From an uncultured Ruminococcus sp. (lineage in GTDB: Bacteria; Bacillota; Clostridia; Oscillospirales; Acutalibacteraceae), in contig CACWOX010000001.1 in the NCBI GenBank assembly GCA_902762615.1, positions 124,001 to 188,000 of the forward strand: a stretch of 64,000 nucleotides of DNA, given 5' to 3'. Position 1 is the first letter of the stretch. Every line of letters begins with the position of its first letter. Positions 61,701-63,527 of the stretch are shown piece after piece. A program made the position numbers and the translations under genes. The notes beneath the pieces are model-generated. The model had not been told where the DNA came from, did no database searches, and saw nothing but the letters and a program-made list of their open reading frames with translations.

Positions 61701-61988
61701 CTATCCGTTCAGTTTTTTCAGCAAATCCGAGATCTCCGCCAATGTGCATGTGGTTTCATCGAGCTTTTTTGCTACGTCCGACAAATCCCTGAAATTATTA
61801 CGGGTTACCCCCAACAGGTAGTCTGTGGTAACATTAAAAAACTCGGCTAATTTTATGATGGCATAACTGTCAGGATTGGTCTTGCCTGATTCATAATTTG
61901 ACAATGTCTTTTGAGAAATACCCGTTGCTGCCGCTAATTCGGATTGTTTAAGATCAGCGTCCTCGCGCAAATCTCTTATTCTGTTCAT
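61701..61988 (-). CDS. XRE-family regulator (short)
   Basis: 95 residues from ATG 61988 (AAAGAGG nine bases upstream). IRDLREDADLKQSELAAATGISQKTLSNYESGKTNPDSYAIIKLAEFFNVTTDYLLGV is a complete HTH_3 domain. The C-terminal 30 residues (SDVAKKLDETTCTLAEISDLLKKLNG) form an amphipathic helix, probably for dimerisation. It is paralogous to the gene at 62209 on the same strand. Confidence 0.88.
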   Translation of the reverse strand: MNRIRDLREDADLKQSELAAATGISQKTLSNYESGKTNPDSYAIIKLAEFFNVTTDYLLGVTRNNFRDLSDVAKKLDETTCTLAEISDLLKKLNG

Positions 61989-62039
61989 TTGCACCACCCT
62001 CTTTATAATAATACTATACTAAAATCTTTCTAAAAACTC

Positions 62040-62068
62040 TTGACAAAGTAATAATTTGCAATTATAAT
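62040..62068 (+). promoter_or_regulatory. Plus-strand promoter without a downstream gene
   Basis: TTGACA (62040-62045), 17 bp, TATAAT (62063-62068), consensus. The next plus-strand gene starts only at 62659, and a minus-strand gene lies between. AAGTA/TACTT inverted repeats (about 62077-62092) follow at once. It might drive a small RNA or antisense transcript. Confidence 0.6.
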
Positions 62069-62208: not shown

Positions 62209-62535
62209 TCACTTTCCAACGCTGTCAAAAAGCCCCTGCATATATGCCCTCACCTTTTCCTGATTCGGCAAAGAAAGCGCTTTAAAATCACTGATAAATT
62301 TTCTGTCCTGTTCGTCGAGCGAATGGTAAATGACATTGTGCGGCTGCTCGGACAAGCCCAGAATATAGTCGCAGCTCACACCGAAAATTTCCGACAGCTT
62401 TATAAGCGACTGCACACTGGGATAATGCTTGCCGTTTTCATAAGCGCTGACGGTTTCCTGACTGACGCCTAATTCAATACTTAATCTGACTTGTGACATT
62501 CCGCGTTCCTCACGCAGCTGCTTAATTCTGTTCAT
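62209..62535 (-). CDS. XRE-family regulator
   Basis: 108 residues from ATG 62535. IKQLREERGMSQVRLSIELGVSQETVSAYENGKHYPSVQSLIKLSEIFGVSCDYILGLS is the HTH_3 domain; the tail HSLDEQDRKFISDFKALSLPNQEKVRAYMQGLFDS is a typical C-terminal helical extension of Clostridia XRE proteins. It diverges from the Cys-rich small protein, and two matching palindromes lie in the shared 124 bp promoter region, so it is the likely local repressor. Confidence 0.88.
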   Translation of the reverse strand: MNRIKQLREERGMSQVRLSIELGVSQETVSAYENGKHYPSVQSLIKLSEIFGVSCDYILGLSEQPHNVIYHSLDEQDRKFISDFKALSLPNQEKVRAYMQGLFDSVGK

Positions 62536-62556
62536 GCACAATCACCAAAAAACATT

Positions 62557-62575
62557 ATACAAGTTCTACTTGTAA
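62557..62575. promoter_or_regulatory. Operator candidate 1
   Basis: ATACAAGTTCTACTTGTAA, with perfect 6 bp arms ACAAGT/ACTTGT around TCT, overlapping the -35 of the plus-strand promoter and a TATAAT (62554-62559) facing the XRE gene. It shares the pattern TACArGT...ACyTGTA with operator 2, 44 bp away centre to centre. Confidence 0.7.
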
Positions 62576-62598
62576 TTATTAGAGGTATGCGCTATATT
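62570..62598 (+). promoter_or_regulatory. Promoter for the Cys-rich small protein
   Basis: TTGTAA (62570-62575), 17 bp, TATATT (62593-62598), about 60 bp before the TTG start. Operator 1 overlaps the -35 and operator 2 overlaps the start of transcription. Confidence 0.72.
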
Positions 62599-62600
62599 TA

Positions 62601-62619
62601 TTACAGGTTTAACCTGTAA
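62601..62619. promoter_or_regulatory. Operator candidate 2
   Basis: TTACAGGTTTAACCTGTAA; the dyad extends to 13 bp arms with one central base (62597-62623), the longest perfect palindrome noticed in the window. Placed just after the -10 of the plus-strand promoter, as expected of a repressor site. Confidence 0.75.
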
Positions 62620-62658
62620 TAAAAGAATACCAGAATCAGAAAAACGGAGGAATTAACA

Positions 62659-62883
62659 TTGGCAAACACATGCCCGTTCTTGAAAGAAGAATGTTACGAA
62701 AGATATTATTGTCAATTCAAAGAAGATTATATCAATACAGACCACTACAATTCCTACTGTCGTGGTCTCTGCGTTCCAGATTATCTAAAGTGTTCAATAT
62801 ATGAGTCATTTGAGTCTGCAAATTTATACGTTGGATATACGATGTGTCTTGATAATTCGGAACCGGAAAGACACGCCGACTGA
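62659..62883 (+). CDS. Cys-rich small protein, unknown
   Basis: 74 residues from TTG 62659, with CGGAGGA seven bases upstream. Seven cysteines: CPFLKEECYERYYC, YCRGLCVPDYLKC and a late one in TMCLDNSEPE. No signal peptide, so it is probably cytoplasmic and may bind zinc or an Fe-S cluster. Acidic and rich in Tyr. It has its own promoter with two operators, is divergent from an XRE regulator and ends at a good terminator. No family recognised. Confidence 0.75.
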   Translation: MANTCPFLKEECYERYYCQFKEDYINTDHYNSYCRGLCVPDYLKCSIYESFESANLYVGYTMCLDNSEPERHAD

Positions 62884-62917
62884 GCATAATCATTATCAGT
62901 TTTTTATTTCAATCATC

Positions 62918-62962
62918 AAGCTCCGCTTTGACACGTTTGCCAAAACGGAGCTTGTTTTATTT
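62918..62962 (+). terminator. Terminator after the Cys-rich gene
   Basis: AAGCTCCG (62918-62925) pairs with CGGAGCTT (62946-62953), followed by GTTTTATTT. Confidence 0.85.
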
Positions 62963-63527
62963 ATTCATCATATGCAAACGGAACCCGCTGATCGCTCTCG
63001 CCGATGAATTCCTGCGTTGCGTTCGCCAATGCCCTTGCAATCGCGTCGAAATTGTTCAAAATCCACGCCGCGTCGTCGGGATTGTCGTGGTAAGCCACTT
63101 CTACCAGCACGGCGGGATAATTCGGGCGAAGCACTTCTCCGAGAAAGTCTGTCGGGCGTACGTCCACCAGCTGCGGTTCGGGATAGATCTTGCGGAATTC
63201 GTCGGCGATCAAATCTGCCGCTCGTTTGCTCTCAGGGTTGGCAGGGTTGTAATAAACGTCCGTTCCCCGAAGCATTCCGGCGAACTGCTCGGGTGCGGCA
63301 TTGGAATGCAGCGCGAGGTAGAAATCATAAGGTCCTGTGGAATTCGCCTGCTGAATGGACGTGCGGGCGGTCATCTGGGGCGTGTTGCGTGTGTAGTCGA
63401 TACCGAGCCGGTCGAGATAAGGCACAAGCGCGTCGGCAAGGCGGTTCATGTTCTGCTCCTCGGTGCCAAGATTGTTGACGTATTCATTGTATTCCTGCGT
63501 TGACGGGCTGAGATAAATTCTTGCCAT
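62961..63527 (-). CDS. N-acetylmuramoyl-L-alanine amidase (Amidase_3)
   Basis: 188 residues from ATG 63527 (GGAGG ten bases upstream). Amidase_3 motifs: IYLSPSTQEYN with an early site, the DFYLALHSNAAPEQFAGMLRG zinc-histidine region, and VLVEVAYHDNPDDAAWI with the catalytic Glu. It cuts the MurNAc-L-Ala bond of peptidoglycan. There is no signal peptide or cell-wall-binding domain; such short forms occur as phage-type lysins or as spore/mother-cell hydrolases. The frame upstream to 63728 has no ribosome binding site. Confidence 0.88.
   Translation of the reverse strand: MARIYLSPSTQEYNEYVNNLGTEEQNMNRLADALVPYLDRLGIDYTRNTPQMTARTSIQQANSTGPYDFYLALHSNAAPEQFAGMLRGTDVYYNPANPESKRAADLIADEFRKIYPEPQLVDVRPTDFLGEVLRPNYPAVLVEVAYHDNPDDAAWILNNFDAIARALANATQEFIGESDQRVPFAYDE

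Follow-up and report, generated by a model that had tools for sequence, protein, structure and literature searches.

A small XRE regulator gene and its control DNA as a probable phage-immunity-like repressor cassette with exchangeable cargo in Clostridia

Clostridia have very many small stand-alone XRE genes, mostly without an explanation, and the locus considered here raises the question of what such a gene controls and why it is kept. In the window (the whole 64-kb stretch of DNA that was analysed), an XRE gene stands divergently from an ORF for a small Cys-rich protein, and direct reading of the sequence confirmed that two operator-like palindromes lie between them, as the first-pass annotation had described. 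That annotation had seen in this layout a tightly repressed module, perhaps triggered by redox state or metal. Our comparison of relatives points to a different answer, in which the conserved unit is the XRE gene together with its control DNA, the Cys protein being one of several interchangeable passengers. The whole is probably a phage-immunity-like repressor cassette that acts locally, regulates itself, carries exchangeable cargo and perhaps works like O_R of phage lambda. The features of the locus are collected in Table 1.

Table 1. Positions in the window of the regulator, its control sites and the cargo
Feature	Position	Strand	Description
XRE regulator, 108 aa	62209-62535	-	ATG at 62535; Cro/CI-type HTH and C-terminal two-helix hairpin
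XRE -10 box TATAAT	62554-62559	-	at the edge of O1; TATAAT in 8/8 aligned loci
O1, TACAAGTTCTACTTGTA	62558-62574	strand-neutral	7/8 symmetric pairs; overlaps XRE -10 and cargo -35
Cargo -35 box TTGTAA	62570-62575	+	TTGT and 17-bp spacer conserved in 8/8 aligned loci
Om, TAGAGGTATGCGCTATA	62580-62596	strand-neutral	weaker operator-like site; 22 bp from O1 and from O2
Cargo -10 box TATATT	62593-62598	+	TATAnT conserved in all aligned loci
O2, TTTATTACAGGTTTAACCTGTAATAAA	62597-62623		perfect 13+1+13 dyad; core 62602-62618; over expected cargo transcription start
Cargo, 74-aa Cys protein	62659-62883	+	TTG start; GGAGG at 62647-62651
Likely terminator, CAAGCTCCG...CGGAGCTTG	62917-62954		inverted repeat and T-run; common to the convergent cargo and amidase genes

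The centres of O1 and O2 (62566 and 62610) are 44 bp apart, between the XRE ATG at 62535 and the cargo TTG at 62659. The cargo promoter reads TTGTAA-N17-TATATT, with O1 on the -35 box and O2 on the expected start of transcription, and the divergent repressor/target layout with matched operators at these two positions, already recognised by the annotation, gains support from its conservation in two genus relatives (G016 and G017). Likewise, the view that a 13+1+13 dyad is improbable by chance was borne out, as none of 20,000 first-order Markov sequences modelled on the same 117-bp region contained an arm of 13; besides O2, no perfect dyad with arms of at least 11 (spacer of at most 5) was found in the 64-kb window. 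O2 begins close to the expected +1; G009 and the window have different outer arms, which are palindromic in both. As an RNA structure, O2 gave no match to an Rfam family, and this reading was dropped; the DNA-operator reading was retained because the O2 core matches O1. The genome search for the operator pattern that the annotation had proposed returned exact matches at O1 and O2 only, and near matches (up to one mismatch) were no more frequent than for the reversed control (13 versus 14 genome-wide). A genome-wide XRE regulon was rejected, since the operator is not enriched away from this locus.

The regulator belongs to the Pfam family HTH_3 (2.8e-17; 62.9 bits against a gathering cut-off of 23), and its predicted structure (mean pLDDT 85.8, pTM 0.59) ends in a two-helix hairpin. 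The best Foldseek match is SinR (1b0n), with 26% identity over the fold match; others are C.Csp231I (4jcx and 3lfp), the DNA-binding domain of ImmR (7t8i) and P22 c2, and the matches thereby include autoregulated or phage-type repressors. XRE relatives in phages have less than 60% identity. No ligand domain was recognised in the protein by Pfam, no Cys residue that might mark a thiol- or metal-sensing XRE is invariant among nine XRE orthologues, and no SinI-like ORF, the neighbour expected of a SinR orthologue, was seen beside the gene in the window. The SinR-like C-terminal hairpin suggests that induction might depend on an antagonist protein and not on a metal or a redox ligand. A second XRE gene (61701-61997, minus strand) faces a near-consensus promoter, TTGACA-N17-TATAAT (62040-62068, plus strand), which runs towards the first XRE gene, at its 3' end, without an intervening ORF; judging from this arrangement, the pair may be a second such cassette whose cargo was lost.

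The annotation had described the cargo as a protein with seven Cys, and all seven are present in the window, but only C5, C18, C34 and C45 are kept in genus relatives, within the common motif C5-P-[FY]-L ... [FY]C18 ... YC34 ... C45; C11, C37 and C62 are not conserved. Relatives of the protein were found in G003, G016, G017, G195 and G426, the more distant of which (G195 and G426) have a CP[YH]L start and a C-P-x-Y ending in common. The protein of the window matched nothing in Pfam, PHROGs, NCBIfam, plasmids or viral contigs, that of a close relative had no phage match, and structure prediction with four sequences gave no confident model (mean pLDDT 40.6). Judged by the four conserved Cys, metal binding is plausible, and their plausible Zn or Fe-S arrangement, along with the nearby Fe-S scaffold-like and GGGtGRT genes of the window, would fit a module centred on the Cys protein and triggered by redox state or metal. 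Nevertheless, we consider such a trigger very improbable, as three of the seven Cys vary, the XRE protein has neither a conserved Cys nor a ligand domain, the XRE gene of G017 adjoins nadE and not Fe-S genes, and the operators are kept in genomes lacking the Cys gene.

This last point emerges from the genus relatives, among which XRE orthologues with 78-88% identity occur in G003, G008, G009 and G017, together with an interrupted one in G016. Besides the window, four genus genomes (G008, G009, G016 and G017) retain the two operators along with the two promoters. In G016 and G017 the cargo begins with a membrane protein, after which come 4-Cys proteins with about 33% identity to that of the window, and G016 has an additional copy of the Cys protein fused to a membrane segment. 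In G008 the XRE gene, both operators and both promoters stand at a different place, before a signal-peptide gene with GETGG repeats, and in G009, where O2 is a perfect 15+1+15 dyad, both operators are kept with no recognisable cargo ORF ahead of the amidase gene. Since the operators persist without the Cys gene or beside its replacement, they track the XRE gene and not the Cys gene, and the earlier notion of a module defined by the Cys protein was not supported, the same operators being present in genomes without this gene (G008 and G009) or with unrelated genes in its place. The annotation had expected relatives that share both genes to have the operators as well, and G016 and G017 do keep them. 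They are missing in G003 alone, where a single deletion, extending from close to O1 into the initial codons of the Cys gene, has taken away the operators together with the start of this gene and its first conserved Cys. This deletion (L004/L012, about 440-500) fuses the region upstream of XRE to the first Cys-gene codons, and the XRE ORF is intact although its operators are gone, which counts against the cassette model. In G016 (L002/L038), the XRE gene is interrupted, with its second part in another frame, and the two operators are retained along with an enlarged cargo (membrane protein, Cys-TM fusion and Cys protein); this possibly means constitutive cargo expression, or else an assembly error.

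In the window and the genus relatives, the cassette has as neighbours nadE, Fe-S/GGGtGRT genes, amidase and pgk. G011 has this neighbourhood, with a GGGtGRT gene, a 74-aa gene and an amidase, but no cassette, which is thus present or absent as a whole. At the 74-aa gene between the GGGtGRT gene and the amidase, it is absent in G011 (L131) and present in G009 (L026/L031). No integrase or phage structural genes, which would mark a lysogeny module or mobile element, adjoin the cassette in the window or the genus relatives. A small XRE gene adjoining a small uncharacterised ORF could also recall a toxin-antitoxin pair with XRE as the antitoxin. We regard this as scarcely credible and rejected it because the cargo is not conserved, being absent in G009, which retains XRE, and truncated in G003; besides, the two genes are divergent and do not form the single operon of a type II toxin-antitoxin system.

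The swapping of cargo extends well beyond the close relatives. A scan of genome contigs with the XRE alignment identified four further loci (L034-L037), whose XREs are 53-60% identical (54-60% over the best segment) and all of which keep both operators, both promoters and the block ATTATAyA..TT.TACTTGT..TT...AGrGG..T.TGyTATAnT with its spacing unchanged and small departures in L037. The promoter/O1/Om block of the window is 73-80% identical to those of the four loci, versus 20-35% for the 20 bp after O2. In L034, L036 and L120, however, the O2 site is degenerate, and that of L037 is displaced by one base, which weighs against the model put forward below. The genes facing these regulators encode a predicted 4-TM protein (L034), a DUF5067/DUF4352-like lipoprotein followed by a 4-TM protein of the L034 type (L035 and L036) and a 76-aa protein (L037). 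An extended pattern was matched in 5 of 398 family genomes (reversed control, 0), and its sole match in another genus, in G559 (L107), again has an XRE orthologue on one side and a new cargo on the other, namely a zinc-ribbon, membrane, DUF5067 protein. The same arrangement, including the 22-bp pitch described below, occurs in G432 (L114), G866 (L120) and G1045 (L121), and L119 (G1010) is identical to L034 across the stretch compared. Altogether, promoters, sites and spacing are conserved beside XRE orthologues in 13 genomes, and the cargo ranges over the Cys protein, membrane proteins, lipoproteins, a zinc-ribbon protein, a signal-peptide repeat protein and none at all. More distant XRE genes (L116-L118 and L122-L129) also have divergent genes, with no matching block found by eye or with a narrow pattern, and were not used in the comparison. 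Among the distant XRE relatives, those of L115, L117 and L129 in other Clostridia face SLOG-family genes (YAcAr/YpsA-type), which are one more type of cargo, and L115 has in addition an O1-like site and promoter spacing; by eye, its O1, promoter and O2 (at 43 bp) could be recognised, and it was not scored. No description of the cassette was found in the literature searched, which consisted of open-licence papers.

The annotation's count of two operators was right as to O1 and O2 and overlooked a third, weaker site midway between them. With Om included, three 17-bp sites lie at an exact pitch of 22 bp, or about two helical turns, over the cargo promoter. The sites were scored at 64 offsets with a leave-one-out procedure, in which each of 12 loci was scored with a weight matrix from O1 and O2 of the remaining loci (12 of the 13 genomes, G016 being excluded as a near copy of G017); these loci share ancestry and do not amount to 12 independent tests. 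The mean scores over the 12 loci were 17.3 for O1, 13.6 at +44, 2.5 at +22 (Om) and -2.9 for the next offset, so that Om ranked on average third of 64, behind the two operators. The full-site score of Om was slightly negative in the window and also below zero in L033, L034 and L121. Symmetric pairs averaged 3.67 of 8 in Om versus 5.25 in O1 and 6.50 in O2, and the poor symmetry of Om is due to the coincidence of its right half with the cargo -10 box, from which part of its score also stems.

These numbers leave room for a plain two-operator autorepressor, in which XRE would act at O1 and O2 only, repressing its own gene and the neighbouring one, and Om would combine promoter sequence with chance. 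Such simple two-site autorepression is the main rival to a self-activating and self-limiting switch, and it draws on the far higher scores of O1 and O2 and on the -10 box in the right half of Om, which is conserved on its own account. The left half (TAGAGGTA in the window), however, sits in the promoter spacer outside the -10 box and is nevertheless conserved and operator-like, falling within the top 0.3-3% of random 8-mers in 11 of the 12 loci (7% in L121). In addition, the offset of Om is exactly half of the O1-O2 distance, and in L114 this site is a near-complete operator (TAGAAGTTAAACCTATA, score 13.9). Weighing these observations, we take Om to be a probable weak operator and hold the two-operator account to be unlikely.

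In the phage-immunity-like cassette that we favour, XRE dimers would most likely bind O1, the weak Om and O2, shutting the rightward cargo promoter through O1 on the -35 box, Om on the spacer and the -10 box, and O2 on the +1, and would tune the leftward promoter of XRE through O1 on its -10 box. This leftward promoter combines a perfect -10 box with only 1-4 of 6 consensus bases at the -35 position (three spacings tried in 8 aligned loci), and the centre of Om lies near -41 relative to the predicted XRE start, which makes self-activation by XRE possible. Judged by geometry, XRE at O2 and Om may activate its own gene as lambda CI does at P_RM, and at a high repressor level O1 would close the XRE promoter. 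Cooperative binding is not assured, as the domain by which lambda CI oligomerises is missing from XRE. The fuller proposal, that three operators at equal spacing and a self-activating, self-limiting repressor promoter constitute a chromosomally domesticated lambda-O_R-like switch, kept through families of Clostridia as a portable controller with its cargo swapped between species, is offered tentatively, as a possibility that falls short of an even chance. In this account the cassette is kept for the regulator's own circuit, and the cargo gene can be exchanged or lost.

Some cargo families have links with phages, which may bear on the function of the cargo. Matches to phage protein families were obtained for the membrane cargo of L034 (phrog_9418, 2e-36) and for the L035 lipoprotein (phrog_806, 8e-22). 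In phage R3.3, genes for an HTH repressor, an M78 peptidase, an L034-type membrane protein, a 4-TM protein and an integrase follow in this order, which puts the 4-TM protein between the repressor/M78 peptidase genes and the integrase; in another phage contig the 4-TM protein comes after two XRE genes. The phrog_9418 4-TM family (L106 3001-3354; L105 3103-3468) is found in phage lysogeny regions, near repressors, M78 peptidase and integrase, and its protein is a candidate for superinfection exclusion. The cassette might accordingly be read as a lysogeny module that was domesticated and now blocks incoming phages by means of an exchangeable envelope or surface cargo, a reading that concerns cargo function and is compatible with our explanation of the control region. 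It is encouraged by the two PHROG matches, by the neighbours of the membrane protein in phage R3.3 and by the location of Ltp-type exclusion lipoproteins in lysogeny modules (PMC3952083). On the other hand, the cargo of the window is a soluble Cys protein with no viral homologue found for its family, no integrase was seen beside the cassette, viral contigs gave no match to the control block, PADLOC gave nothing for the cargo, and repression would hold the cargo off until a signal arrives. We judge superinfection exclusion to be quite improbable, and treat the phage-family matches as a lead to function rather than a demonstration. A viral origin of the control block was rejected, given that no copy was found in viral contigs.

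Overall, our results describe a regulator inherited as a unit with its control DNA while the controlled gene changes, and consequently the annotation of the cargo says little about the purpose of the regulator. The three sites and two promoters provide a testable layout for a phage-style switch outside phages, and the signature of the control block can be used to find further cargo genes, some of them in families also present in phages.

Several known systems come close to the cassette. Lambda O_R with CI and Cro, P22 c2 and phage phi11 have in common with it an HTH_3 regulator, divergent promoters and, with Om counted as a probable weak operator, three evenly spaced 17-bp operator-like sites. 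The operator pitch in lambda is about 23-24 bp and the CI activation site lies at -42. As in lambda O_R, the promoter of XRE itself has a good -10 and a poor -35 box and a site near -41, and the general logic by which CI activates its own gene from OR2 has been described (PMC10742460). The cassette differs from lambda in its 22-bp pitch, its weak middle site, an unrelated forward cargo, the absence of adjacent phage genes and the lack of both a CI-type C-terminal domain and a Cro gene; opposite XRE, no second repressor was found, and the divergent gene encodes the Cys protein, with no HTH family match, or other cargo. ICEBs1 ImmR is an autoregulated repressor with a divergent promoter, a layout shared by the cassette, and its DNA-binding domain is among the fold matches of XRE, whereas no adjacent ImmA protease, integrase or conjugation genes accompany the cassette. 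The restriction-modification C proteins, such as C.Csp231I, are also small autoregulated HTH proteins with several operators at their own promoter, but the cassette has no restriction-modification genes. SinR of Bacillus subtilis resembles XRE in size and in combining an HTH with a C-terminal helical hairpin, and it controls unlinked biofilm genes and has SinI as its antagonist (PMC3163267), whereas the exact operators of the cassette occur only at its own locus and no adjacent SinI-like gene was seen. Finally, Ltp-type lipoproteins (PMC3952083) recall some of the cargo, namely the small lipoproteins and membrane proteins whose families have members in phage genomes, with the difference that Ltp is expressed from a prophage and the cargo of the cassette is host-encoded and predicted to be repressed.
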